Assembly: GCA_013911415.1 (NCBI GenBank)
Contig: JACETI010000001.1
Span: 248,001 to 312,000, forward strand
Source: Legionella sp.
GTDB taxonomy: Bacteria; Pseudomonadota; Gammaproteobacteria; Legionellales; Legionellaceae
Direction: 5' to 3'
Length of the DNA stretch: 64,000 nucleotides
The notes below the pieces were generated by a model. That model ran no database searches, was not told the DNA's origin, and saw only the letters and a list, made by a program, of their open reading frames with translations. This document shows, one piece after another, positions 20,809 to 52,304 of the stretch. Made by a program: the position numbers and the translations under genes. Numbering within the stretch: the stretch's first letter is position 1; the number at the start of each line of letters is the position of its first letter.

Positions 20809-22605
20809 TTAATGAGAAGAGGATCGTCGTATCCGCACTTCCTGAGTGGGGCGGGGGCGCTCAAAAGAAGCGTCTTTAAAAAGATCATAGAAGGCTTGCG
20901 TACCCTTATCCCTGCCTAGACCTCCGATCGAGCAGGGTTTTTTTCTGGCCGCACGCTTGCCGATATTTAATACCTTTTGCAGTGCATCTACGGTCAACTG
21001 TTCTGGTGTCTTCGGTTTGGAGGAGAACAATCTCCAACAACTTGAGAAGCATCCAGTATTACGAACAGGATTTTCATCGAGCGTTTTATTGATAACTGCG
21101 AGCATTTCTACTACATGCCTTGGATAGATCCTTTTCACATTTCCATTCTCATCTTCTTGTCTCCTTGTCCTTTCTGTCTCTTGGAACTTGCCCACTTTCC
21201 ATAGATTGTCCGTGATAAGCGTTCGAATATCTTGAAGTAAATTTCTTGCAACTGCGCCTTGGCGGAGTGTAGCTGCTTCAACGCTGTCATTATCCGCATA
21301 AAAATTGTTTTCTACGCGGTAATGAAAGATTTTTCCGATGTTTGCGATTTGACACTGGCGAACTGCTTTTTTAATACTCTCTTGCTCTATAGAAGTAATT
21401 GCTTGAATTTTTTCATTTAACTTGTCCTCTGTTTCTTCCAGCGCTAGAGCTACTATTTGATCTGATTTAATATTTAACCACTTATTATGAGATTCAAGCT
21501 CGTTTTTAAGCGTTGGATAAAAATCCTTGCCAATTTTTTCTGCGATTGTTCGCCCCGTGACCTTAAGGAGACGCTTCTCTTTTGTAGTAATTTGATCAGA
21601 GCCATGGCCATCCAGCACCGTTATCGAACAAGGCTTACCTGGTTGAACATGACCAAGCCCAACAGTAATGTTATCTTTTGAAAAGTTATTTAAGGCATCT
21701 TGGACCATCTTTTCTGAAATTTTAGACAAAGACACTTTACCTCGACTTTTCATTTTACCTTGACTTTTAATTTGCCTTTTTATTTCACCACCTATAAAAC
21801 GACGTAGCTGTCGAGTACCATCCAAAGGATCGAAGTCACTTTTTTTTGTATAACCGTTTGAAGCTGCTAATATAAAGGCCTTTTCACCTTTTTCTAATAG
21901 GGTTTCGAAGCGTGTGATGTAAGGCTCATGTGTCACTCCGCAGTCTTCTGAAGCAATATCACCAAACACTGGACCTTTATCACCAAACACTCCCGTGACC
22001 CCTAACTTTCCTAGCCTACCTTTTGACAATTCAGCTTCTAGGATCCAAGGTCTTAAGGCTGTTTTCTCATCAATTCGTCTTTCTTCATTAAACTCTCTAA
22101 TTCGTTTCTTTTCTTTTTTTACTCTTGGGTCATGCAGATCCGGATTGAGGGCCTCGACTATAAGCGTCCCATTCTCTTTAACACGTAATAAGAACGCTAC
22201 ACTGTCCCCTAAACTAGCAGTCCACACCGTTAACTTTTGGACTTCCTTGCCTTTTGACCGCGCTGAGCTAATCCATCCGGTAGCAGAACAACAGGTTGTA
22301 CCGACCTTACGACTTTCGATACCCGAATTCCTACTGTCTAATGTTTTAAATGTTCGTTTAAGGCTTTCTTCAATCAATTTTTCGTCCATTTGAGGCATCA
22401 AATTGACATCTTCTGTCCCAAAAACAATGTAATCTTGTTGTTCTTCATGGTGTATAAGATCATTGCCAACTACGCTACAATATCCGAAGTTAACCTCGTG
22501 CTGCTGAAATTCCTCCGTGATATCGCCCTCTTTCGGGACATAATTAGGAATATCAACCTTTTCTAACTTTAAATGAATATCAATTTCTTCATTACTCTTA
22601 CTCAT
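20809..22605 (-). CDS. PP2C-like protein with relocated DGHG motif and altered active site (copy 1)
   Basis: A 598-residue protein paralogous to the one at 30930-32663. PP2C (PPM phosphatase) motifs in order: FGYCSVVGN and EQQD (55-58), GTTCCSATGW (102-111), SLGDS (131-135), GVTGVFGD (202-209), ILAASNG (245-251) and KDNIT (310-314). Only then comes LDGHG (331-335) with the helix expected after it. In normal PP2Cs the DGHG motif is second, not last. The SDG motif reads SNG, so a metal-binding Asp is replaced by Asn250 and the enzyme may be inactive. The C-terminal half is helical and of unknown type; its end (GTQAFYDLFKDAS) matches the paralogue. AGAGG precedes the start. A secreted effector is possible but unproven. 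Confidence 0.75.
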   Translation of the reverse strand: MSKSNEEIDIHLKLEKVDIPNYVPKEGDITEEFQQHEVNFGYCSVVGNDLIHHEEQQDYIVFGTEDVNLMPQMDEKLIEESLKRTFKTLDSRNSGIESRKVGTTCCSATGWISSARSKGKEVQKLTVWTASLGDSVAFLLRVKENGTLIVEALNPDLHDPRVKKEKKRIREFNEERRIDEKTALRPWILEAELSKGRLGKLGVTGVFGDKGPVFGDIASEDCGVTHEPYITRFETLLEKGEKAFILAASNGYTKKSDFDPLDGTRQLRRFIGGEIKRQIKSQGKMKSRGKVSLSKISEKMVQDALNNFSKDNITVGLGHVQPGKPCSITVLDGHGSDQITTKEKRLLKVTGRTIAEKIGKDFYPTLKNELESHNKWLNIKSDQIVALALEETEDKLNEKIQAITSIEQESIKKAVRQCQIANIGKIFHYRVENNFYADNDSVEAATLRQGAVARNLLQDIRTLITDNLWKVGKFQETERTRRQEDENGNVKRIYPRHVVEMLAVINKTLDENPVRNTGCFSSCWRLFSSKPKTPEQLTVDALQKVLNIGKRAARKKPCSIGGLGRDKGTQAFYDLFKDASFERPRPTQEVRIRRSSSH

Positions 22606-23220
22606 AGGGGACCTCTGCTTGATACTTCATAACGTAATAATTCATTATACCTATTTTTGATCAAATTGTATCTATTTTTACTTTATTTATAAATTTGAGA
22701 GGCGAAAGGTAAGTGCTAATGCCTTTTGTTTTTATTCGCGTAGGCTTTGAGTTAACATGCTAAGAAGCTCAATAAATGCCGATGTAGGCTATTTTCTTTT
22801 CGTGAATTTGTTGAAAATTTAAGTTTTTATTAGCAAGCAGTACAGGCAAAAAACAAGTTAATGTTGGTGGTTACAAAATGTTGATCTGACCGCGAGTATT
22901 CCATCTAACTTCCAGTCATATTGAACATTGAGCGCGGGGTTGAATTTTTAGTTTGCCACTTCATGGAGTAGGTTAAGCACAGTCATTCTTAATCCACACT
23001 GTTTATTTAGTGAGATGGCATTCGTAAAACAACTTCACAGCCAATTGACTAATCAAAAGTTATCCTTATCAAACAAATTCGGTGATTGCTCAAAGTTATC
23101 TCTTTTTTATCGGTTAGTCCTTGGTAACCATGCTAAATCCATTCTTCTGTATTCTTTAGTTGTAAAAAAACCGGCATTCACTTTAAAATTTACTGAGTAT
23201 TTACATCTCCTGGAGAAAGC
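22606..23220. other. Intergenic stretch with one repeat copy
   Basis: 615 bp without a gene I can support. It contains the upstream region of the first PP2C-like gene (AT-rich) and the short repeat copy at 22941-22987. A possible 76-codon frame (23015-23245) overlaps the start of the glycosyltransferase and is not convincing. The last bases (ctcctggagaaagc) hold the ribosome-binding site of the next gene. Confidence 0.6.
22941..22987 (+). repeat. Dispersed direct repeat, copy C (shorter)
   Basis: Contains TGAATTTTTAGTTTGCCAC, matching copy A (20729-20747) at all but one base, followed by a looser match to the GTTAAAGCAAAG-CAT end. It is in the same orientation as copies A and B. It lacks the leading CCACATAGCCAT block. 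It sits between the first PP2C-like gene and the glycan cassette. Confidence 0.55.
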
Positions 23221-24324
23221 TTGCAAAAGAAAATTACGCCCCTAATTAGTGTATGTCTCATAGTTTTCAATCATGAAAGATACGTTGCAGAAGCGATCAC
23301 CAGTATTTTGAAACAAACGTTTTCAAATTTTGAACTGATCATTGTAAATGATGGATCAACTGATAAAACAGAAGCAGTGATTAACTCTTTTCAAGACAAA
23401 CGAATGCATTATATTTATCAAAAAAATCAGGGTCCAAGCGCCGCACTTAATAGAGCTATTAGACATAGTACCGGGAAATATTTAGCATTTTTATCAGGTG
23501 ATGATATTTGGCATCCCGATAAACTACAGAAGCAATATACATGGTTAACTGCGGAATCTAATAGAAAAATTATTTTTTCTCATATTGATTTTATAGATGA
23601 TAACAGTGGTCCAATCGCAGTCCCTTGGGCAGACAATCTCTTTAACCAAAAAGATTCTAAATCAAGGCCAGAATATTTAAGAACGTGGTTCTTTAAGGGC
23701 AATTGTTTGAATGCTGGCACTTGCCTGGTAGAGAAAAAGTTAATCTTGGATCTAGGTATGTTTAACTTAGCTTCTCTTCAATTACAAGATTTTGATATGT
23801 GGATAAAAATCATATCAAAGTATGATATTTATGTATTACCCCAAAAGCTTATGAAATATAGGATTCGTGCCAATGAAATGAATTTAAGCAGTAATAAAAA
23901 TCATCTTCGCACATCTTTTGAATGGTATGCTCTTGCCAAGAATATATTTAACGCTATTGACATTGAACTTTTTAAAGAATCATTTTCCGACCAGCTAAAA
24001 AAAGCAAATTTTACAACTAAGATTGAGTATGAGTTAGAAAAGGCTTTTCTTTTTTTGAATAATGAGCTGGCTTATATCAAGATCATTGGCATTGAAAAAC
24101 TTTTCAACCTTTTACAAAATGAAAATATTCTCAAGGTGTCTCGGTCTGAATACAATTTTGACTTACCGGATTTATATCATTTAACCAAACTCAATCAAAA
24201 TATTGACGTTAGTCCTGAATACCCTTCAAAATCGGCCAATTTTTATCAAAAAATAATTAATTATGCATATCCAGTTATTCCAAAACCATTTCTGAAATTT
24301 TATCGAATGTTTTATAAGACTTAA
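23221..24324 (+). CDS. Family 2 glycosyltransferase
   Basis: A cytoplasmic or membrane-associated GT-A enzyme of 367 residues that moves a sugar from a nucleotide-sugar donor to a glycan acceptor. The N-terminal half holds the GT2 signature: ISVCLIVFNHERYVAEAI, LIIVNDGSTDKTEAVI with the DGS loop, NQGPSAALNRAI, and FLSGDDIWHPDKL with the metal-binding DD. The C-terminal 130 residues match nothing I know. The start is TTG, chosen because GGAG lies 6 nt upstream and no ATG or GTG precedes it after the in-frame stop. It is the first gene of the AT-rich sugar cassette; donor and acceptor are unknown. Confidence 0.9.
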   Translation: MQKKITPLISVCLIVFNHERYVAEAITSILKQTFSNFELIIVNDGSTDKTEAVINSFQDKRMHYIYQKNQGPSAALNRAIRHSTGKYLAFLSGDDIWHPDKLQKQYTWLTAESNRKIIFSHIDFIDDNSGPIAVPWADNLFNQKDSKSRPEYLRTWFFKGNCLNAGTCLVEKKLILDLGMFNLASLQLQDFDMWIKIISKYDIYVLPQKLMKYRIRANEMNLSSNKNHLRTSFEWYALAKNIFNAIDIELFKESFSDQLKKANFTTKIEYELEKAFLFLNNELAYIKIIGIEKLFNLLQNENILKVSRSEYNFDLPDLYHLTKLNQNIDVSPEYPSKSANFYQKIINYAYPVIPKPFLKFYRMFYKT

Positions 24325-24417
24325 AAGCAATAGGAGTAATTTTAAATATTTTTATCTTAAAATGTATTTATTTGTATATTTAAGAAGCGCGCATATACCG
24401 TTAATAGTAAAAACTTC

Positions 24418-25545
24418 CTAGCCGGATAGTTCATCACTTGCTTGATATTGGTTGATAATCTCAATTATATATTCGGTTTGTTCTTGGGTCTGCACAGGGC
24501 TAATGGGTAAACTAATTACTTCACGATGAATTTTTTCAGTTATGGGGAATGACATGGCATTTAAACTTTTATATGCAGCTTGTTTATGAGGGGGAATAGG
24601 GTAATGTATAAGTGTGTCTATGGAATAGCTCCTCAAATATTGCTGAAATCGATCTCTCTGTTCGACACGAACCACAAATAAGTGCCACACATGAGTATTT
24701 TCTTCCAACGCCACGTTGGGTAGTATAAGAGATGGATTTCCGATCTTTGTTCGATACATCTGCGCAATGTGTCGACGTTTTTGATTGTCATCATCTAATC
24801 TTGCAAGTTTCACATTTAATATAGCCGCTTGAATCTCGTCTAAACGGCTATTTATTCCTTTGACGGCATTATTATATTTAATTTTACTTCCATAATTCGC
24901 TAAACAACGAATTTTTTCTGCCAACGCATCGTCGCTCGTTGTAACGGCCCCTCCGTCTCCTAGGGCACCTAGGTTTTTACCTGGATAAAAGCTAAAGCCA
25001 CTAGCATCCGCCAAATTTCCTGCTCGAATATGCTGATAGCATGCTCCATGCGCTTGAGCACTATCTTCAATGATTTTCAGGCCATACTTTTTTGCTAATT
25101 CCCAGATCTTTTGCATAGGTGTAATCTGACCGTACAGATGTACTACCATGAGAGCCTTTGTTTTTTTTGTAATCGCAGACTCTATGTGATCGAGATCTAT
25201 TAAATAGCTCTCAATGTTAGCGTCAATAAGAATAGGCTTTAAATTATTTGCACAAATTGACAATATACTAGCAATGTAAGTGTTTGCGGGTACAATTACC
25301 TCGTCATTATCCGCAAGAATGCCTAACTCTTTGTAAGCACGGAGGATTAATATTAACGCATCTAACCCGTTCCCAACGCCTATGCAATGTTTAGATCCAC
25401 AATAATTCGAAAAATTTGATTCAAATTGACCACATGAGTTCCCTAAGATATACCATCCAGATTCTATAACATTCCTTATACCTTTATTAATTTCATCATA
25501 ATCCCTTTGGTTAATCGCTTTTAAATCAACAAATGGTACTTTCAT
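24418..25545 (-). CDS. fdtB: dTDP-3-keto-6-deoxyhexose aminotransferase, FdtB/QdtB-like
   Basis: A PLP-dependent DegT/DnrJ/EryC1 (SHAT) aminotransferase of 375 residues. The start [13 protein letters not shown], the [10 protein letters not shown] loop, EDSAQAHGA (PLP-contacting Asp) and the Schiff-base lysine in [15 protein letters not shown] are all seen. The closest functional group by feel is FdtB/QdtB, which aminates the 3-keto sugar made by FdtA/QdtA. FdtA-like and FdtC-like genes lie within 5 kb, which supports this. A strong ribosome-binding site (GGAAGG) precedes the ATG. A TATAAT -10 box lies about 40 nt upstream. It is transcribed opposite to its neighbours. Confidence 0.88.
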
Positions 25546-25584
25546 CTTTTCCTTCCCTGACTTACATTGACCGATAATTGTTAC

Positions 25585-25613
25585 ATTATACTATGGAACC
25601 ATAAGGCATTAGA
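25585..25613 (-). promoter_or_regulatory. Candidate promoter for fdtB
   Basis: A perfect TATAAT -10 (plus-strand 25585-25590) lies about 40 nt before the fdtB start. The -35 region at the right spacing (TCTAAT) is poor, so this rests mainly on the -10 box. Confidence 0.4.
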
Positions 25614-25795
25614 AAAATTCACTTTATTTTAACCGATCAAGCTCGACTTTAAAGTTTGGGCTGTTATTATATAGCATACGAAATACTACAATTAAATTTA
25701 TTGAAATTGTCAAAAGCACTTGACTTTGGATCATACTTCTAAACGTTTGAGAATCTCTCGCGATGCGGTTATGGTTAGCGTAAATTCATGCATTG

Positions 25796-28372
25796 ATGAA
25801 CGGACTTGATAGAAACGAAATGGATAATATCATAAAAGCAAATCTTAAAAGGATAAAAAGACATTCCTTAACTTTTACTTTTTATTTTTTTTACCTGGCA
25901 GTAACAGGTATTTTTCTGGTACATAATCTTCACTCAAATTTGTTTTGTAATATCGAAAGTTTCCTGGCTTTACCCTCAGGACTAGACTCACACTCTTTTG
26001 CAACCGGGGCTTTAGATCTTTACCATCACGGAAATTTTTCCCCGGAAAATCGCTGGTTAATAAGACTCTGGCCACCCGGATTAATGGCCTTGGAAGCTGC
26101 TATTTTAGCAGTTTTTGGTAAAAATGTGCCTTTTATCCTAATATTAATGATCTTAAATACCTGTTTAGTTGCTTTAACTTTAGTAATATTAAATCTTAAT
26201 TTTAGGTATTTCATACCTAAGCGAACTACTTACCTTTTACCCATTGTTATTTTTTTATTTTTCCCATTACATCACTTGTTTTTTATCGACTCGCAAATGG
26301 TAATCCTGGGTGAAGGATTTGCTAGCTCCTTTTTCATCAGTGCAATGTTCCTCTTGCCTATAGCAATTCAAAAAAAATCCTATTCAATAGCGATGATTGC
26401 CGGAACTCTGTTGGGATGCTCTTCGTACTTCAGACCACAATTTGAAATAATCGTATTATTTCAGACAATTTATGCAATTATTGGTTTGCTATGTTATGTA
26501 GTTATCCGACTGCGATATAAACAAATCCAACAACATATTCATTTTTCATTTAGAGTAATATTATTAACTCTGATATGCGCACATTTAATTATGCTACCCT
26601 GGAGGCTGCATAATTTTGTTAAAGAGAACACCATTTCTTGGGTATTAACCTCGACTTTGGTTTATCAACATGCAGCGTTAACCGATAAACAATTGCAAGA
26701 AGTAGGGGATAAGTTTTTCCGTAAAGGAGGAGGTAACTTAGCGTGTCAAATAGATCCTACCTATTGCGGGTCAGGAGGGCAGGCTGCTTTTTATCGGGTT
26801 TTTTTCACCCATACCAGGGAATGGCTATTTAAAAAGTTTAAAATATTATATGCCTACTGGTTCTCGACCAATGCAATCTCAGATTCAAATACAACGGCTA
26901 ATTTACTTGAAAATTTTTTCAATGTTTTTGCTTTGTTTTGTATTGTAATAACATTACCACTTCTTTTGGCTATTAAAAAACATCCATTTTTTATAATTTT
27001 TAGTTGGATGTGTGCATCTTTTTATAGCTGTTTTCTAACTATATATACGTTAGTGCATATAGAATTTCGTTACTTTTTTATAGTGAAGTTATTTTCAATT
27101 TTTTCCGCGGCAATTTTAAGCATAATTGCGTGGCATTGCTACAAAAAAAATAAAAAGCCATTTAAGAGTAAAAACGTTGAGGTTACTAACGTTGAGGTTA
27201 CTAATGATCTCTCCTTTAACAATAATACAAAAATATTACTTTCGAAAAAGAATCGGCAATCGAGTATGCAAGCTCCCGTTATATATAACGCACAAGCTTC
27301 TGAATGGGAGACGTTGGATGAAATTTCAAGCAGCGAACCTGATCTGCACGTAGTTTTATTCAGCAAGATAACCGCGATAGGTCGGACCCTAGGTATTTTA
27401 AATAAAAAAGTTTTTTATCATCCTGAACTTGTACAGCATTGCTCTTCGCACGATTCTAAAGGGGGGGCTATATATACTTATAAAAATACAGACAGGGGTA
27501 TTTCAAACGTTCAACTTAATTGCAAAAAGCCCATCAGTATAAGCGGTTATTGTTTACACCTATTAAAAGAACACTCTCCAAATTATTATCATTGGTTATT
27601 CGAATGCATGCCGAGATTAATTTATTGCATACTTTATTTAAAAAATAACAATCTCTTGAGAAAAAACCTTACAATTTTGGTAGATCGAGGTGTGCCTTCC
27701 CAAGGAATTGAACTCCTTAAAATTTATATGGAACGTTTTCACGTACCTTACAGGATTTTTTTCGTCGATGCAGGCCAATTTATCTTATGTAAACATTTAT
27801 ACTATGTTACTCCCTTTTGGTATGCACTAGATAATACTTCCCGAAAACCTCACGTAACTAGAGATTTTTTTGTTGATTCCTATGCTGTATCTCTCATACA
27901 AAAATTATTCGATCATGACTCGAATAACACACCGAGCAAATATATTTATTTAGCTCGCAATCATTCCACATATAGAAAGATGATCAATGCGGAGGAAGTG
28001 GAAAAACTACTCACAAACTTTGGATTTGAAATCATCAATCCACATTTATTGAGTTTTAGAGAACAACTGGAATTATTTAGCACAGCCAAGTTAATTGCGG
28101 GCCCAGCAGGCGCAGCTTTTAGTAATATAATATTTATGCAAAAAAAAACAACTGCCTTGATTTTTTCGCCGAGTACTCCCTCAACAAATTATTACGTTTT
28201 CCAACAACTAGCTGACAGCGCCCATGTTAAACTTGTCCATTTTTTAACCAGCCCAGCATCTACAGATAATAATAGTGTTCATGCTGATTTCCACGTGGAT
28301 TGCAGACAACTAACTCATATAATTAATGAGTTAGGAGGAAATTATGCTCCGAAAAAATTGGCAACTTTTTGA
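25796..28372 (+). CDS. Fusion: polytopic membrane (GT-C-like) domain plus GT61-like glycosyltransferase
   Basis: An 858-residue two-part protein. Residues 1 to about 455 form a polytopic membrane region with around ten hydrophobic helices and an early WPPGLMALEAA loop, resembling PMT/ArnT-type lipid-linked sugar transferases. Residues from about 500 to the end resemble GT61 (DUF563): NYYHWLFECMPRLIYC, KYIYLARNHSTYRK, LFSTAKLIAGPAGAAFSN and a late acidic/His segment. The join contains a 15-bp tandem duplication giving NVEVTNVEVTND. TTG at 25793 and ATG at 25820 are alternative starts. The last 29 nt overlap fdtA, so the two are probably cotranslated. It likely builds or decorates a surface glycan. 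Confidence 0.8.
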   Translation: MNGLDRNEMDNIIKANLKRIKRHSLTFTFYFFYLAVTGIFLVHNLHSNLFCNIESFLALPSGLDSHSFATGALDLYHHGNFSPENRWLIRLWPPGLMALEAAILAVFGKNVPFILILMILNTCLVALTLVILNLNFRYFIPKRTTYLLPIVIFLFFPLHHLFFIDSQMVILGEGFASSFFISAMFLLPIAIQKKSYSIAMIAGTLLGCSSYFRPQFEIIVLFQTIYAIIGLLCYVVIRLRYKQIQQHIHFSFRVILLTLICAHLIMLPWRLHNFVKENTISWVLTSTLVYQHAALTDKQLQEVGDKFFRKGGGNLACQIDPTYCGSGGQAAFYRVFFTHTREWLFKKFKILYAYWFSTNAISDSNTTANLLENFFNVFALFCIVITLPLLLAIKKHPFFIIFSWMCASFYSCFLTIYTLVHIEFRYFFIVKLFSIFSAAILSIIAWHCYKKNKKPFKSKNVEVTNVEVTNDLSFNNNTKILLSKKNRQSSMQAPVIYNAQASEWETLDEISSSEPDLHVVLFSKITAIGRTLGILNKKVFYHPELVQHCSSHDSKGGAIYTYKNTDRGISNVQLNCKKPISISGYCLHLLKEHSPNYYHWLFECMPRLIYCILYLKNNNLLRKNLTILVDRGVPSQGIELLKIYMERFHVPYRIFFVDAGQFILCKHLYYVTPFWYALDNTSRKPHVTRDFFVDSYAVSLIQKLFDHDSNNTPSKYIYLARNHSTYRKMINAEEVEKLLTNFGFEIINPHLLSFREQLELFSTAKLIAGPAGAAFSNIIFMQKKTTALIFSPSTPSTNYYVFQQLADSAHVKLVHFLTSPASTDNNSVHADFHVDCRQLTHIINELGGNYAPKKLATF
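27173..27202 (+). repeat. 15-bp perfect tandem repeat inside the GT fusion gene
   Basis: AACGTTGAGGTTACT occurs twice head to tail. Because the unit is 15 bp, change in copy number would keep the reading frame and add or remove five residues (NVEVT) in the linker between the membrane and GT61 parts. Confidence 0.9.
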
Positions 28373-28775
28373 TTTGCCTCAAATTAAGGAAAAAGAAAGA
28401 GGAAATTTAAGCTTTATTGAGGGAGGGGGTCGCAATATCCCTTTTGATATTAGGCGAGTTTATTACCTCTACGATGTTCCTAAAAGTCAAGAAAGAGGGA
28501 TGCACGGACACAAGCAGCTGGAGCAACTTTTTATTGCTATAGCAGGAAGCTTCGAAATTTTACTGGATAGTGGTGAAACCAAAGAAAATTTCTATCTGGA
28601 TAACCCTACCAAGGGCTTATACGTCAAAGGAGGAACATGGCGTGAAATAAGAAACTTTTCTAATGGCGCCGTGTGCATAATCCTAGCCTCTGACTTTTAC
28701 GATGAAAAAGATTATTTAAGGGAATATAAAAGTTTTTTAAAATTTGCACGTAGCAACAATGAAAAAAACCTTTAA
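28344..28775 (+). CDS. fdtA: dTDP-6-deoxy-hexulose 3,4-ketoisomerase, FdtA/WxcM-like
   Basis: A 143-residue single cupin domain. It has the family's histidine motif RGMHGHKQLEQLFIAIAG (FdtA relatives have RGxHAHxxLxQ) followed by FEILLDSGE, and GLYVKGGTWREIRNFS. These enzymes isomerise dTDP-6-deoxy-4-keto-glucose to the 3-keto sugar that FdtB aminates. The start is well supported: GGAGG lies 6 nt upstream, inside the end of the preceding gene. The HAH of FdtA reads HGH here. The product stereochemistry (galacto, FdtA; gluco, QdtA) cannot be decided by eye. Confidence 0.88.
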   Translation: MLRKNWQLFDLPQIKEKERGNLSFIEGGGRNIPFDIRRVYYLYDVPKSQERGMHGHKQLEQLFIAIAGSFEILLDSGETKENFYLDNPTKGLYVKGGTWREIRNFSNGAVCIILASDFYDEKDYLREYKSFLKFARSNNEKNL

Positions 28776-28961
28776 AGGGATATTTATATTATCCACTTAC
28801 TTGAGGGATGGTATCAGGCCTTCACTCAAGTCACGAATTTGAAGCACCTAACTTACTTCTAGCTAGGACTAAATTGCACATTAAAAGATTAATCTCTTAA
28901 AAGGTTACTAAATTAAAAGTTACACCAAGTTCCTTGTCAGGAGTTATACAAGCAGAAGGAG

Positions 28962-29870
28962 ATGAGTTCAATCGTAGTTCCCGTATACGGGGCAGAAAAT
29001 ACATTACTCGTCGCCTTATTACAACATTGCACGCCATGAGCATTTGTTTCTTTTGAAATTATATTTGTGGAGGAGATCATTTTTGGTCAATCATTAATCA
29101 ATTATCCACAGAGTTTACCCGGGTAATCAGCATCAGAAAGAGCAGAAACTATGGTCAGCACAACGCATTACTAGCCGGAGTTAGAGCAGGTAATGGTGCT
29201 TTAATAATTACTTTAGATGATGATCTCCAGCATCCGCCAGAAGAAATTCCTAAGTTAGTTGACAGAATTTATTGTGGTTACGACGTTATTTATGGTTCGC
29301 AAATAGAAGCTCAACAGAGTTTTTTTTAGAAATATGGCATCTTGCGTAACAAAATTTTCCTTACAAAGATTATCAGGGTCAGAATCTGTTCAAAGTATTA
29401 GCGCACTTAGAGCTTTCAGAACAAATCTACGCGCTGCTTTTGATAAATACCATCGCCCTTCTGTCAATCTAGATATACTCCTAACATAGGCCACAACAAA
29501 TTTTGGCATATGATATGTTAAACATTACATTCGCAAAGACAGCAAATCTGACTATAATTCAAGAAAATTATTTGATCATGCATTAAACATGATCATTGGT
29601 TTTTCGACTATTCCTCTCAAAATTGCTAGTTGTTAGGATTAGTATTAGCTCTTTTTGGCCTTAACATTTTATTTTATGTGGTTCTGCGTTTTTTTCTTGT
29701 AGATATACAAATACGTGGGCTCCCCTTTCTCACATCAATTATCTCATTTATTTTAAGGCGCACAGCTTTTAGCCCTTGGCGTCGTAGGGGAATATATAAG
29801 GAGGGTATATGAACAATCTATTAATCGCACACCTTATTGTTGCAGTTTGATATTTTGCCAGATTTTCTAG
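28962..29870 (+). pseudogene. Degraded family 2 glycosyltransferase (DPM1/GtrB/ArnC type)
   Basis: Successive frames spell out the landmarks of a membrane-anchored GT2, but frameshifts and stops break it. The first 20 codons give MSSIVVPVYGAENTL. Later frames give EIIFVEE (a damaged VDDGS), SRNYGQHNALLAGVRAG, DDDLQHPPEEIPKLV, then a C-terminal membrane part (GLVLALFGLNILFYVV), and finally GAQLLALGVVGEYIRRVYEQS. The order is that of an intact gene of about 310 codons. At least four lesions are seen, including a stop after IEAQQSFF. It starts with an ATG after GAAGGAG. An active copy would have transferred a sugar to a polyprenyl phosphate carrier. Confidence 0.85.
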
Positions 29871-29959
29871 TTCAGGGTGAAGCTATTTTTAGGGAGAAGA
29901 TCACTATGTAAATTTATAAATTAATCCTATTAATCATATATCATGCTGACAAATCGATA

Positions 29960-30664
29960 TTATTTTTTTTCAACCGGACACGCGGGTAATCCTCTAACAT
30001 GAATATTTGGAGGAACATCTTTGGTCACTAAAGCTCCTGCCCCAATAAATGCTTCTTTTCCTATCACAATATTTGGTAATAAATTAGCCCCTAATCCAAT
30101 AACTACATTATCTTTGATAATGGCACCCACCACGTGCTTGTCATAAGTATTAGTTACCACATTATCATTAGCGCTACCAACGTTAGCGCTGATAAAAACA
30201 TTGCTACCAATTGACATATTTCCTGTCAAATGTGTGTTATCCATTACTTTAGTGTGGTCACCAATAATTGTATTATAATTGATGGTTACATATCGGCTAA
30301 TAATGCACTTATTCCCAATTTCACAGCCCTCACGGATAGAAGCGCCATCTCCCAATAATGTACCTGAACCTATAGTTACCCCGTAATATATAATGACATG
30401 TGGGCTGATTACGGTCCCGTCGCCTACATTGATAGGCTTATTAACAGCCTCGACTTTTCTAGACGTAGCACCAGCACCATTGGGGGTTTTACCGATCACA
30501 GCACCGTGATAAATTTCAAGATGACTTCCTAAAGTGACATTATCTCCAATGTACACATAGGGGTGAATTACAGTGTTGTCCCCAATCGTCGCTTTTCCAA
30601 TAATAGCATAGGGTGCAATACTAACATTTTTCCCTATAATTGCTTCTGGGTGAATTTGGTTCAT
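29960..30664 (-). CDS. Hexapeptide-repeat sugar N-acyltransferase, FdtC-like
   Basis: A 234-residue left-handed beta-helix protein made almost entirely of [LIV]GxxxxI hexapeptide turns (IGKNVSIAPYAIIGK, IGDNVTLGSHLEIYHGAVIG). It ends with AGALVTKDVPPNIHVRGLPA, the usual acetyltransferase C-terminal turn. Such enzymes use acetyl-CoA. With FdtA- and FdtB-like genes nearby, the best reading is the N-acetyltransferase for dTDP-3-amino-3,6-dideoxyhexose, giving dTDP-Fuc3NAc or dTDP-Qui3NAc. The specificity is inferred from context only. UDP-linked sugar or acyl-lipid transferases share this fold, although the longer LpxA architecture is not seen. It faces the broken GT2 gene. Confidence 0.82.
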   Translation of the reverse strand: MNQIHPEAIIGKNVSIAPYAIIGKATIGDNTVIHPYVYIGDNVTLGSHLEIYHGAVIGKTPNGAGATSRKVEAVNKPINVGDGTVISPHVIIYYGVTIGSGTLLGDGASIREGCEIGNKCIISRYVTINYNTIIGDHTKVMDNTHLTGNMSIGSNVFISANVGSANDNVVTNTYDKHVVGAIIKDNVVIGLGANLLPNIVIGKEAFIGAGALVTKDVPPNIHVRGLPACPVEKK

Positions 30665-30750
30665 ATATCGCTTACTCTCACAGGCTGCTGTATAAAGTTA
30701 CGTTAACAAATCGAACTATTTTCTATTAAAACCATTAAGTTGTTATTAAA

Positions 30751-30822
30751 CCACATAGCCATTCATGCAGATTCGTTTTTAGGTTTTCAGTTTGCCACCT
30801 TATAAGATTAAAGCAAAGTCAT
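30751..30822 (+). repeat. Dispersed direct repeat, copy B (contains an RND-start fossil)
   Basis: Matches copy A over about 72 bp, including CCACATAGCCAT, the reverse complement of the RND gene's start ATGGCTATGTGG, although no RND gene is present here. As with copy A, it lies downstream of a PP2C-like gene. This suggests that the PP2C-like gene was duplicated together with a piece of RND 5' end. Confidence 0.75.
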
Positions 30823-30875
30823 TTTTAGGAGCATTTACAGGTTCAGCAAATTGAGAAACAGAAATGACAGGCGTT

Positions 30876-30911
30876 ACAAAAAGCGGTTGTGCTATTCATA
30901 GAGAATAGCAC
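30876..30911 (-). terminator. Rho-independent terminator of the second PP2C-like gene
   Basis: A perfect 9-bp stem (GTGCTATTC / GAATAGCAC, plus-strand 30889-30911) with a 5-base loop lies 19 nt after the stop codon. On the minus strand it is followed by AACCGCTTTTT, a short T-run. Position and structure fit intrinsic termination. Confidence 0.65.
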
Positions 30912-30929
30912 AGGAGAGGGGGCACTGAT

Positions 30930-32663
30930 TTATGGGTGTGACGATTTCTGAACTTGTTCCTCAGCGACTACTTTAGGCGGTAGAGAAGCATCTTTAAAGA
31001 GGTCGTAGAATGCTTGGGTCTCTTTATCGCGCACTCCCATTCCACCTATTGAGAAGGGTTGTTTTTTTGCAGCGTCTTTGCCTATCTTTACAATCTGTTC
31101 AAGCGCACTAAATTTTGGATCCGGTTTAGGAGTGGGTTTTTTTATCATAAACCAAAATAAAGACAAGCAACCTAGATTTTCAGTATCACGTTTTTGAGGA
31201 AACGCTTTGTCAATAACAGCCAACATTTCTGCGACATGCTTTGGAAATGTATTTAACTTATTTCCCTTTTGATCCGGAATCACAGTTCCTCCCATTTTAC
31301 CTACCTTCCAAGGGGTAGCGAGAATTGCCGCTCGAATATCGAGCAGTAATTCTGCAGCAACGGATTCTTTAGACTGTAATGCATCAACTCCAATTAAACT
31401 AGGTTGTTGCATTCTTTTAGTAAAAATTTTACCAAGGTTAGGAATCTGATACTCTAGAACCATTTTTTCAGGGCTGCATTGCTCCTTCGCCGCGGGGGGG
31501 TTCTGTTTAATCTCATTTACAACCTCCCTTCCTGTTTTAACCGACAATTCTCTCGGCCAAGAATTTATTTCAAGTTTTTTTTCAAGGGTTTGATAAAAAG
31601 CCTTACCGACATCTTCTGCCACTTTTTTCCCAGTTTTCCCTTCATAGTCTCTCCTGTCATTTCCGGCATAAGAATCGCCATGGCCATCCAAAATCGTCAG
31701 TGAAGCAGGTTTATCTGCCACAAGAGGACAAATGACGCAAGAAATATTATCCCTGGACTTTTGCTCTAAGGCTTTTGCAACCATCTTTTCAGCGATCTCT
31801 GAATAGTCTAGCTTTGTCTCAGCAGAAGATCGGCTTATGACTGCATCTCTTAAAATACCCCCTAAGATGTTTAAGCCACCCTGTAACGTTTGAGCCTTTT
31901 CCAATAAACCATCACAGCTGCCAACGACGTAGACGCGCTCATCTTTTTCTAACTCTATTACAGTTTTTGAAACATCCGGTATGTGAATCGTTCCCTCTAC
32001 TTCTCCTTCAATATTTCCAAATGTGCGGGTTACACCTAATCCTGCTACTCTCTTTGTTTCCTTAGCATTTTCTTCCCATATTTTTTGACGTTTCTGCGCA
32101 TAGGCTTCTGTTATATTATTATTCTTGATCCTCTCCTGTAGGTGTTTTTTATAAACGTTTCTTGCTCTTTCTTGTTCCGCTACTGCACTCGGCTTGTGGC
32201 TTTCCGGATCATTGAGGAGCTGAACGCTAAAGGTATTATCAGCTTTAACCCGTACTAAGAAAGCGACGCTGTCTCCCAAATTAGCAGTGTAAGCGGTGAG
32301 CGTAGGTTGAATCGGCTTTCCCTCAGAATCTACAGTATCTATCCACGCCGTCGTCGAGACACAAGTAGCACCAAGGTTATCAATGTTCGCGTGGTCGTTT
32401 TGTAATTCTTCGAATGCATCCAAGAAACTTTTTTTCACGAATGGTTCATCCATCGTGGACATTAAACTAATCCCTGGACCTGAAGAGACAACGATTGCAT
32501 CTTGTTGATCTGTTCTCTCAGTTCCTTGCACTTCACAGACACCAAAGAAAACCTCAGGGTTTCCGTTAGGATCAGTGAAAATCTTCTTAAAATCCCCTTC
32601 TTTTGGGGCGTATCCTGGGATATTTAGCTCTTTAACAGTCGATTCCTTCTTTTCTATACTCAT
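30930..32663 (-). CDS. PP2C-like protein with relocated DGHG motif (copy 2)
   Basis: A 577-residue paralogue of the protein at 20809-22605. PP2C landmarks in order: FGVCEVQGTERTDQQDAIVV (DQQD 52-55), GATCVSTTAW (98-107), NLGDS (128-132), GVTRTFGN (210-217), VVGSCDG (246-252) and RDNIS (304-308). Then comes LDGHG (325-329) with a following helix. The SDG-type metal aspartate is kept here (SCDG), unlike in copy 1, while the GD of the sixth motif reads GN. This copy is therefore the better candidate for an active Ser/Thr phosphatase. The remaining 220 residues are helical and end in ETQAFYDLFKDAS like copy 1. No signal peptide or membrane helix is seen, so secretion would need a type IV-like route (inference). 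Confidence 0.78.
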   Translation of the reverse strand: MSIEKKESTVKELNIPGYAPKEGDFKKIFTDPNGNPEVFFGVCEVQGTERTDQQDAIVVSSGPGISLMSTMDEPFVKKSFLDAFEELQNDHANIDNLGATCVSTTAWIDTVDSEGKPIQPTLTAYTANLGDSVAFLVRVKADNTFSVQLLNDPESHKPSAVAEQERARNVYKKHLQERIKNNNITEAYAQKRQKIWEENAKETKRVAGLGVTRTFGNIEGEVEGTIHIPDVSKTVIELEKDERVYVVGSCDGLLEKAQTLQGGLNILGGILRDAVISRSSAETKLDYSEIAEKMVAKALEQKSRDNISCVICPLVADKPASLTILDGHGDSYAGNDRRDYEGKTGKKVAEDVGKAFYQTLEKKLEINSWPRELSVKTGREVVNEIKQNPPAAKEQCSPEKMVLEYQIPNLGKIFTKRMQQPSLIGVDALQSKESVAAELLLDIRAAILATPWKVGKMGGTVIPDQKGNKLNTFPKHVAEMLAVIDKAFPQKRDTENLGCLSLFWFMIKKPTPKPDPKFSALEQIVKIGKDAAKKQPFSIGGMGVRDKETQAFYDLFKDASLPPKVVAEEQVQKSSHP

Positions 32664-48887: not shown

Positions 48888-51800
48888 ATGATGTACGTAT
48901 TTTTACCTGATGTCTTAAAACATTTGATTTTTTCCTTTTTAAGCAATGACGAATTATTGCAAGTAGGACGATTAATCGATCATCAAAGTCAGACGCTGTC
49001 ACTTCATCATCTTTTTAACCGAGTAGACGACACCGTCATCGAGCAGCAATTTCAGCTTTTAAATCAATGGATCAGCTTCCGAAGTAAGACCGGTCAACAT
49101 TTAACGACGCTACAAATCAGTGCTTTGAATACGTTCTTTCATTCCAATGATCGCAGGGCCCTTGAATATCAAACTGTCTTACTACAAGAATGGCTAAGCT
49201 ACTTACCTAACTTGCCAGTTTTGAATAATCAGCAAAAAGATGCTTTAAGCATGCTTCAACCTACTTTAGAGGCAAAACTCCAGAGTTTTGCAACTGATAC
49301 AATCTATAAGAATTTAGCTCTTCTCTCCCTGTTGACCTGTCAAAGTTATCCTCGCAAGGTCGATGACGCTTTTTTTTCAGAATTTTTTAATCAATTTAAG
49401 CAGGCCCTGGATATTTTTCGAGAAACACCCTCTTCTCATGGCTCAACATACCAACGACCTAAAAAAATTTTTAAGGACTATCTCAAACTATTAATGACGT
49501 TTAGTGCAACTGTATTTACTGCCCCACAAATAAATACGCTCTGTCTTTTTATTAACGAGACCCTCTGCGAAAAACCAAAGGGGGAAAAAATATTGTTACG
49601 TGCATTGGCACAGTTAACAAATTTTCTCAATCCAAAGGACATGCCCGCAATACATTCCTTATTAATTGAAAGTCTTTGTCGTTCACAGAGGCTTTTGCAT
49701 CGATACAGTAAAACTGCGCATTCGTCACTCGATGAATGGTTATTTCCTGCCAATTATCAGTTGCTTATCTCTACATTTATAAAAAAAATTCAGTCTAAGG
49801 AATGCAAAATCGTCTTTTCTAACGAATCAATCTTAGCGCTGCTTGACCAAAAGGCTTATGCACATCTTGATACAGCCCAGCGTACTGCTCTTATCGACAG
49901 CCTCATGAATAATTTCCACCAACATTACCTTCTAAACGATCCGCTGAAAGATCCATTGAATAACAAAAAACTCGAAGAGCTGTATAAAATATTAGAGTTA
50001 GGTAAGCAACTCAATGCTCCTCTAAATAAAGAAGCCTGTCATTTGGCTGAAAGTGCTGTCACTGCCGCTTTTCGTGGTTATTTTTCGGCATGGCACACGT
50101 GTAAAAAATCAAACACCGTCTCCTACCCACTTCGCGAATCGATTCGCATTCTCGCTCAAATTATCCCATTCTTATTCACACAACTAGATAAAAATCAGCA
50201 GCTCGCCATCCGTAATCTTTTAGCCAATGCCGTCATTAGCAAATTACAAGACACCGATCGTTTTCTTTTTCGATCTGAACTCGTTACAACCTTTTTCTTT
50301 CCCTGCTTTCATATCCTTAGCACTTTAGCTTCTACACTTACCGACTTAGATAAGATAGCACTTGCACAGCTAATGCTGCATTACCAAAGTCATCTCTCTC
50401 AAGACAAAGAAAGAAAAGCATTTACCTCTTCTTTAACTCAAATTTTAAAACAGCTTTCTTCTGAAAGCTTTCTAGCAGTCGCTCCTGCTTGTGTAGATTA
50501 TTGCAAAGATAGCAGCGTGTCTTACCCGTTCGCGCTTTCATTATTTGTTCAGTTAACGGACGAACAAAAACGACTTTTTTATCGTTTTGCAGCCACTATT
50601 GATATCAGCCATGTTGACAGTAGACTTAAAATCACGGGCCTACTAAGTAAGGCTTTTAACCTTTTCAACGAGGATCAACAAACAACCCTTGTCAAACAAC
50701 TGTTAACACATTTACCCTCGAAAAATAATCAACATGTCTTATTAATACTTCTTGCCTTAAGTTCCTTGTGCACACAGTTGTCCTCTTCACAAGCGATTAC
50801 CTTTTCACAGAAGCTGATCCAACAACTCGAAGCGCCCCCTAAAGACCTTAATTACGAAGATATTTTTTATGCTTTGTCTTTACTACCCAAACAACTACCT
50901 CCTGAGCAACAAACTGAGCTCACATCTACCATTCGACATTTTCTAAAAAATTTTGCTGATTCTGCCTTGGATAATAAGTTGCTCGTCCGTGCGCTCCCCT
51001 ATGCTTATGTGGAGGAAAAAATACCACAGAAGGCTTTCTCTGCCTTGATAAAACAATTGAAATCTCCTAATTCAAACACTTGTAAGACCTCTCGAGCTTT
51101 ACAAAGTTTAAGCACCGTTTTACCTCAGCTCGATCAAAGACAATGGCAAAAAACGCTTGATCGCTCCCTACATGTCTTACATGAAACTTATTTCGCCGAA
51201 ATATGCGCTATGAATCTCTCATTGATAGAACAACTATTTACTCACCTTCCAAAAAAACAACAGCGGATTCTACAAAAACTCAGCATCAAAGTTAGTGAAT
51301 ATGATGAAAATACCACCCCTTTGAACTTAAAAACATTTAACGAACTCTATGAGAAATTAACCTTTAAGAAAAAAATGCAATTCGCAGATCACATTTTACA
51401 TACTTTGCGATCACCGCAGTCCAAAAAATATTTAGCCGCTCTGGATAAACTAAAGCTGCTTTTCCCCCATTTACAGGCAAGTCAACGGACAAAAACATTC
51501 TCCCTTCTCTCTGCACACTTTAATCAGGCCGAAAATGGTGCTGATAGTATATTGTTATTTGCATTAGCTGAGATCACTCCTTATTTGGAACGAGCTGATC
51601 TAATCCGGACGGAAATTGATAAAAACGCGCTGTTGCAAACTTGTAAGATTATTTTTAACGCTATTCACGAGAATAGCGAGGAAGGAGACCTCGACTGTTA
51701 TTTCCAACTGTTAAGAACACTCACACCCGTTTTGCCACCGGAAAGCAAATCATTGATGGCAGAAAAAATATTTAAACAATTAGTACAAAACATTCATTCG

Positions 51801-52304
51801 GATTATTTCAAAGAGGGCTTGGAGTTACTTGGCCTCTTAATGATGGAAGACGATAGCGAAGTGCCAAACACGCTTATTACTGTACTTTGTCAAATCATTG
51901 AATTGCATGCTGAAGAAAAAACCAAAAGTTTGGTGGCGCTTAAAATGACTAACCAGCTGGCTTTTAAGCTGACAGATAAGGCACTAACCTCTCTCGCCAC
52001 CGTTATCAATCCATGGGTTGAGGACAATGATCCCACTTTTCGGCTCGAAGCGGCGCAATTCATGTGTACTTACAAAATGAACTTAGGAAACATTTCAACT
52101 AACGATGCTCCCAGTCACACCTCTGCCTCATTGTTTTTACCCGAGAAGACGACTTCCTCTCGCAAGCCCGAATACATGGCGATGCATAGCAATCTTTACT
52201 TTTTTTCAGCACTTAAGCATCATCGAGAAAATACCAAGTCCACTCTTTCAACCCTGGAAGAAAGGACCGATTTACTCAACACTAATGAGTATCGTTTTAA
52301 CTAA
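48888..52304 (+). CDS. Giant helical-repeat protein with N-terminal F-box-like motif, candidate effector
   Basis: A 1138-residue protein with no signal peptide. Residues 6-30 (LPDVLKHLIFSFLSNDELLQ and following) match the F-box pattern LPxxLLxxIFSFLxxxDLL. F-box proteins recruit substrates to SCF ubiquitin ligases in eukaryotes. The rest is almost wholly helical: repeated pairs of amphipathic helices with Leu/Phe spacing, resembling HEAT/ARM solenoids (for example ILLRALAQLTNFLNPKDM, VLLILLALSSLCTQLSSSQA and LFALAEITPYLERADL). Solenoids are typical substrate-binding parts. Legionella has F-box effectors, so this is a strong effector candidate by inference. The polar C-terminus shows no recognised signal. 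bioD follows 24 bp later. Confidence 0.72.
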   Translation: MMYVFLPDVLKHLIFSFLSNDELLQVGRLIDHQSQTLSLHHLFNRVDDTVIEQQFQLLNQWISFRSKTGQHLTTLQISALNTFFHSNDRRALEYQTVLLQEWLSYLPNLPVLNNQQKDALSMLQPTLEAKLQSFATDTIYKNLALLSLLTCQSYPRKVDDAFFSEFFNQFKQALDIFRETPSSHGSTYQRPKKIFKDYLKLLMTFSATVFTAPQINTLCLFINETLCEKPKGEKILLRALAQLTNFLNPKDMPAIHSLLIESLCRSQRLLHRYSKTAHSSLDEWLFPANYQLLISTFIKKIQSKECKIVFSNESILALLDQKAYAHLDTAQRTALIDSLMNNFHQHYLLNDPLKDPLNNKKLEELYKILELGKQLNAPLNKEACHLAESAVTAAFRGYFSAWHTCKKSNTVSYPLRESIRILAQIIPFLFTQLDKNQQLAIRNLLANAVISKLQDTDRFLFRSELVTTFFFPCFHILSTLASTLTDLDKIALAQLMLHYQSHLSQDKERKAFTSSLTQILKQLSSESFLAVAPACVDYCKDSSVSYPFALSLFVQLTDEQKRLFYRFAATIDISHVDSRLKITGLLSKAFNLFNEDQQTTLVKQLLTHLPSKNNQHVLLILLALSSLCTQLSSSQAITFSQKLIQQLEAPPKDLNYEDIFYALSLLPKQLPPEQQTELTSTIRHFLKNFADSALDNKLLVRALPYAYVEEKIPQKAFSALIKQLKSPNSNTCKTSRALQSLSTVLPQLDQRQWQKTLDRSLHVLHETYFAEICAMNLSLIEQLFTHLPKKQQRILQKLSIKVSEYDENTTPLNLKTFNELYEKLTFKKKMQFADHILHTLRSPQSKKYLAALDKLKLLFPHLQASQRTKTFSLLSAHFNQAENGADSILLFALAEITPYLERADLIRTEIDKNALLQTCKIIFNAIHENSEEGDLDCYFQLLRTLTPVLPPESKSLMAEKIFKQLVQNIHSDYFKEGLELLGLLMMEDDSEVPNTLITVLCQIIELHAEEKTKSLVALKMTNQLAFKLTDKALTSLATVINPWVEDNDPTFRLEAAQFMCTYKMNLGNISTNDAPSHTSASLFLPEKTTSSRKPEYMAMHSNLYFFSALKHHRENTKSTLSTLEERTDLLNTNEYRFN

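Follow-up and report, generated by a model that had tools for sequence, protein, structure and literature searches.

Putative PP2C phosphatases of Legionellaceae with the DGHG strand and its helix placed behind the last catalytic motif

A stretch of 64,000 nucleotides (the window) from a Legionella sp. assembly (GCA_013911415.1, contig JACETI010000001.1, positions 248,001 to 312,000) encodes two paralogous proteins, P0001 and P0002. Both are apparently members of a PP2C (PPM) phosphatase family in which the DGHG strand, together with its following helix, has undergone a non-circular permutation; we put the probability of this reading at about 0.88. The usual order of PP2C motifs is ED, DGHG, G-T-A, GDS, SR-GD, SDG, and DN. 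In P0001, the motifs are arranged as QQD (residues 53–55), GAT (98), GDS (130), FGN (215), CDG (250), DNI (305), and LDGHG (325–329), and in P0002 as QQD (56–58), GTT (102), GDS (133), FGD (207), SNG (249), DNI (311), and LDGHG (331–335). The original prediction, which had placed LDGHG after DN in both paralogs and all other motifs in the normal order, is thus borne out, including the residue numbers. The two proteins share 39% identity across residues 10–575 of P0001. The features of the locus are as follows (positions within the window; those of the motifs were counted from the start of the respective open reading frame).

30930..32663, minus strand: P0001, 577 amino acids, with a predicted permuted PP2C domain (about residues 36–368) and a C-terminal region
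32499..32507, minus strand: QQD of P0001 (residues 53–55), an ED-type motif in the usual N-terminal place, counted from the frame start at 32663
31908..32372, minus strand: core of P0001 from GAT (98) via GDS and FGN to CDG (250–252), in the usual order, from the Pfam match and motif positions
31743..31751, minus strand: DNI of P0001 (residues 305–307), ordinarily the last catalytic motif, from motif positions and the structure model
31560..31706, minus strand: putatively relocated unit of P0001 (LDGHG strand, loop, and helix), from block mapping, the structure model, and motif positions
30933..31586, minus strand: C-terminal region of P0001 (residues 360–577), its start overlapping the moved helix
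20809..22605, minus strand: P0002, 598 amino acids, paralog of P0001 with the same motif order
21601..21615, minus strand: LDGHG of P0002 (residues 331–335), downstream of KDNI, counted from the frame start at 22605

The PP2C model of Pfam (PF00481) recognizes both proteins above its cut-off of 20.3 bits (P0001, 37.4 bits, 3e-9; P0002, 26.7 bits, 5.3e-6), and these are its sole matches at E-values up to 1 in the genome of the window. The matches cover only profile positions 73–255 (P0001) and 72–254 (P0002); the DGHG motif corresponds to a region within positions 29–71 and therefore lies outside of them. In homologs from six genomes, a second, weak stretch of PF00481 (E-values of 0.001–0.01, 16.7–19.8 bits) lies downstream of the main match in the same frame and comprises profile positions 29–71 (G114, G125, and G129), 29–103 (G126), 36–71 (G155), or 33–80 (G143).

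In an HMM comparison capable of refuting it, the predicted move of a strand-helix unit to the C-terminal side of the domain is supported by a three-block, non-collinear mapping of a family profile on PP2Cs in the PDB. The profile (A2) was built from 55 relatives, excluding the window proteins; a 69-row alignment (A1) and a closer 14-row alignment (A3) were also used. On the ABI1 chain of 3nmn, query positions 24–41 (ED) map to 14–31, positions 270–301 (DGHG) to 55–86, and positions 59–267 to 103–309. The ED block is weak on its own (0.7 bits), and the DGHG block alone has independent E-values of 0.0014, 0.0013, and, in PPM1B, 0.14. The three blocks are out of order in all three PDB alignments displayed, which include ABI1 and PPM1B. 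A2 matches P0002 (from 9 to 338, 3.7e-32) and P0001 (from 97 to 285, 3.3e-23) collinearly with its own order. In a reverse control, a hidden Markov model (HMM) of the DGHG block of the permuted family had its best match on the DGxG motif in 16 of 22 other proteins of the class and reached at least 2.5 bits in 13 of the 22, compared with 2 of 440 shuffled sequences.

The new order extends far beyond the two paralogs for which it was originally proposed. PF00481 has matches in 74 of the 143 genomes of Legionellaceae (the set for the order comprises identical genomes), with 89 main matches in 88 proteins in addition to the six second stretches. An alignment joined these 88 proteins with P0002 and with four from elsewhere in the class, outside Legionellaceae. 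Of its 93 proteins, 81 had the aspartates of ED and DN, the G of GT, and a DG motif 17–26 residues (median 21) past DN, in place of the usual motif order; 78 of the 81 are Legionellaceae proteins, from 67 of the 143 genomes. The four metal-binding aspartates and the histidine of DGH are jointly kept in 78 of these 81 members, the histidine of DGHG in 79, and the arginine preceding ED in 76. All 69 members of A1 match PF00481 at an E-value of 0.001 or below, and D326 of DGHG occupies one of only five invariant columns in that alignment.

A chance occurrence of DGHG is ruled out by the conservation of the layout (81 of the 93), by the invariance of D326, and by the block mapping. A normal second motif hidden between ED and GT, whose presence would have counted against the original prediction, was not found with a DGxG-type pattern in any of the 81 complete members, whose ED-to-GT spacing of 38–60 residues (median 43) is about 50–55 residues shorter than in PPM1B and ABI1 (counted on the A2 alignments). 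The DG of ‘vyDGkgN’ after GTT was likewise rejected as a second motif; in canonical chains, its counterpart is the hairpin that connects the GT strand to the GDS strand. A circular permutation does not apply, because ED remains N-terminal and the blocks change from A-B-C to A-C-B, which cannot be obtained by circular permutation (B-C-A or C-A-B).

Several of the aligned proteins depart from the common pattern. Catalytic residues are lost in L077, L078, the second copy in L085, and L087; L097 has altered ED, CDG, and DN motifs but keeps DGHG, and L129 has DEHR in its place. L077 and L078 (from G163 and G171) have a PP2C core that lacks its catalytic acids, and the N-terminus of L077, which is likely a pseudophosphatase, resembles the F-box-like model of Pfam slightly below the cut-off (5.4e-5; 23.3 vs 24.3 bits). 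L085 (G171:C13) comprises two adjoining copies, one with all motifs and a degenerate one with YGGQQ in place of YDGHG. L095 (G015:C233) reads as an ordinary bacterial PP2C in normal order and is the single such protein among the PF00481 matches of Legionellaceae.

A scan of named genomes with A3 yielded 34 loci, of which 31 belong to Legionella or Fluoribacter (L. longbeachae, L. anisa, L. bozemanae, and others), two to bins of Legionellaceae, and one to a bin of Proteobacteria. Outside Legionellaceae, the permuted order occurs in G307, G371, and, with DGFG, in G388; A2 is collinear through the DGHG block in all three (query positions 17–362, 4.7e-70; 14–370, 2.0e-80; and 78–301, 1.5e-21, respectively), and G371 has additional matches. 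Across the class, PF00481 has matches in 182 of 274 genomes. From 28 of the matching loci, 26 proteins were obtained. Four belong to the permuted type, one of them in degenerate form, and the other 22, considered normal, include 18 with DGxG within their first 70 residues. A phylum-wide search of 398 genomes with A2 returned only the genome of the window, yet five class genomes found via Pfam match A2; the phylum search therefore lacked or missed them. In G191:C6, A2 matches in two pieces (77–208 and 251–346) that lie in separate frames (L180 and L183), which may mean that the gene is broken in this relative. Phages, plasmids, and viral contigs showed no match (one query each: A3; L049) and hence no sign of having spread the family.

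Confident structure models of P0001 and a relative (L091, 321 amino acids) have the two-sheet PP2C fold, with the tail unit as a strand and a helix in both. In P0001, the last core strand (residues 307–313) is followed by the strand carrying LDGHG (320–328) and a helix (345–368). In the single-chain model of L091, which has a predicted template modeling (pTM) score of 0.93, a link of about six residues joins the last core strand (253–259) to the DGHG strand (266–274), and the predicted local distance difference test (pLDDT) score of the tail unit is 97–99. The moved unit would correspond to β3-α1, which in the normal fold separates the ED strand from the second helix and here follows the last strand; it would slot back at the same position of the sheet. 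The aspartate and glycine of DGHG would then still bridge both metals, and the protein would be a Mn/Mg-dependent Ser/Thr phosphatase.

The topology of SpoIIE offers a rationale for such a move. Its sheets are ordered β1-10-9-6-7 and β2-3-4-5-8, the β2-β3 loop lies at the base, and α1 and α2 lie between β3 and β4 (PMC3517971). By analogy, both ends of β3-α1 probably lie at the base of the domain. Its excision would leave two joinable ends there, connecting the ED strand to α2, and since the last strand would also end at the base, the unit could be re-attached at the C-terminus by a short turn such as that in L091, leaving the fold unaltered. The order may have arisen by duplication followed by partial loss: one protein of 1,205 residues (L099, G047:C34) carries two tandem permuted PP2C domains, with DGHG at residues 456 and 1060; an intermediate of this process was not seen among the proteins of the family.

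The move may also bear on the control of the enzyme. In SpoIIE, the metal-binding glycine after the aspartate of DG sits where the activity-regulating switch helices join (PMC5468089). In the permuted proteins, the helix after DGHG would be severed from the next helix and run directly into a variable C-terminal tail, whose length, counted from the DGHG aspartate, ranges from 38 to 570 residues (749 in the tandem protein), although some frames end at the edge of the locus. The C-terminal region of P0001 has no sequence match in the PDB but has matches in seven of the 143 Legionellaceae genomes, including its own. It looks like an exchangeable tail, because two of the matching proteins (L007 and L013) have a different N-terminal part, without PP2C motifs by eye. 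It is a speculative and rather doubtful extension that the permutation rewires control and persisted because the catalytic switch is thereby passed directly to interchangeable C-terminal modules, as in a plug-in family of phosphatases.

With respect to function, P0001 is expected to be an active phosphatase, because it keeps Arg50, the four metal-binding aspartates (D55, D251, D305, and D326), and H328, the histidine of DGH. P0002 should be weak, inactive, or changed in specificity, because histidine (His53) replaces the arginine equivalent to Arg50 and asparagine the aspartate of CDG. The likeliest reading is that the family consists of secreted phosphatases that came from eukaryotes; its members, in bacteria that carry Dot/Icm, would then be directed at the host and target its phosphoproteins. 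Among the best 60 of 78 PDB matches of A2, plant and animal PP2Cs rank first (about 1e-32), and the entries 6ihl and 6ihv, which we take to be bacterial, reach only about 3e-6. The DotA/TraY model, the one Dot/Icm component searched for, scores above the cut-off in the genome of the window and in four of five others, i.e., in five of six genomes checked. The closeness to plant and animal proteins agrees with Kerk et al. (2015), who place Legionella PP2Cs in the eukaryotic PP2C clade (PMC4524716).

A permuted PP2C fold that catalyzes another reaction on host proteins is the alternative that survives best, although we consider it rather unlikely. SidD (de-AMPylation) and Lem3 (dephosphocholination) are PP2C-fold effectors of Legionella (PMC3656104, PMC10115812), and P0002 shares with them a changed residue at the arginine position; however, the work on Lem3 links the change in reaction to the residue that replaces the phosphate-binding arginine (PMC10115812), which is present in P0001 and 76 of the 81 members. 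That the proteins are housekeeping bacterial regulators that are not secreted is less probable still, given the PDB ranking, the patchy presence in 74 of 143 genomes, and the distribution of DotA. It is very improbable that the moved unit acts in trans, with the C-terminal strand and helix supplying the missing part of a partner chain's active site. The PP2C domain of SpoIIE was crystallized as a dimer with strands 1–3 swapped, but its authors describe it as mainly monomeric in solution (PMC3517971), and the short link and single-chain model of L091 also argue against a swap. Least credible of all is a coincidental, separate C-terminal DGHG in PP2C-like proteins that lost their second motif: Pfam matches mainly the core, with 83 of the 89 main matches beginning at profile position 50 or later, but the conservation of the motif, the correspondence of its block to the equivalent strand-helix unit in ABI1 and PPM1B and to the DGxG of 16 of the 22 other class proteins, and the high-scoring tail unit of L091 all contradict it.

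The permutation itself also has to be weighed against several less favorable observations. Five of the 93 aligned proteins are fragments and seven are degenerate, altered, or in normal order, and the DGHG-block HMM has its best match off the DGxG in six of the 22 control proteins. Q54 of P0001 replaces the glutamate of ED and N217 the aspartate of SR-GD, and P0002 lacks the aspartate of SDG/CDG (N250). The loop directly after DGHG in P0001 (331–340) is modeled at a pLDDT of 58, and the models drew solely on alignments of the family (69 and 55 rows). A tree does not place the permuted proteins together on one side of a branch; it requires three changes between permuted and non-permuted labels, with one change in 0% of 200 bootstrap trees; a single origin is compatible with the well-supported branches, and long branches disturb the tree. 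As for the host-directed role, DotA had no match in G388, which is 88% complete.

The region between P0002 and P0001 (23221–30664) is occupied by sugar-chain genes, which include a glycosyltransferase 2, a DegT aminotransferase, a glycosyltransferase 61 protein, an FdtA-like protein, and a hexapeptide-repeat protein. Close to P0001 (34594–36024) lies a gene for a eukaryote-like leucine-rich-repeat protein of 476 amino acids, possibly an effector. An open reading frame of 1,138 codons (48888–52304), without a Pfam match at 0.01, lies under the strongest guanine-cytosine skew of the window among 4-kb steps (−0.171).

PP2C is a heavily studied phosphatase fold whose motif order is regarded as constant. 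If the proposed permutation is true, an internal strand-helix unit with a metal ligand can relocate while the catalytic residues persist; motif order is a usual feature of PP2Cs, not a part of the chemistry. Domain searches that assume this order report such enzymes as partial, as Pfam does when it misses the second motif of the window proteins. This makes it testable which fold units are free to relocate and whether an enzyme comes under different control when a regulatory helix is displaced.

As the original prediction had assumed, no PP2C with DGHG last, nor any other re-ordered PP2C, turned up in titles and abstract openings among the matches listed in the open-access literature (an account elsewhere is possible), and we found no earlier description there of a non-circular A-C-B permutation. 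The main text of Kerk et al. (2015), whose eukaryote-like Legionella PP2Cs may include members of the permuted family, does not contain ‘permut’, ‘rearrange’, or ‘motif order’ (PMC4524716), and the main text of a PP2C survey lacks ‘permut’ (PMC12088040); in PMC3517971 and PMC5468089, the term is used of a GTPase and in comparing PP2C with proteasome proteases.

Eukaryotic PP2C/PPM phosphatases (ABI1, HAB1, PPM1A, and PPM1B) have the DGHG strand and helix between ED and GT, whereas in the Legionella family they follow DN. Stp1, PstP, tPphA, and PrpC, which we take to represent bacterial group I PP2Cs, have the metal aspartates and the fold in common with the family but are more distant in sequence and in normal order; the NCBIfam model for Stp1 matched 16 of the 69 members of A1 (best, 5.4e-12), and P0001 reached 20.4 bits against a cut-off of 230. 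SidD and Lem3 likewise combine a PP2C fold with a C-terminal part, in their case a helical bundle, but catalyze other reactions, and the residue at the position of the arginine before ED is changed in both (PMC10115812). Unlike in the permuted family, the metal residues of SidD (D92, D110-G111, and D326) are in normal order (PMC3656104), and the same order is probable for Lem3, described as having a conserved PPM-like fold (PMC10115812). A changed chain order is also part of the circular permutation discussed for PP2C and proteasome proteases (PMC5468089), in which the parts are alike but their order along the chain differs; in the Legionella family, by contrast, the change would be non-circular, with the ED strand remaining first and a single internal unit moved.

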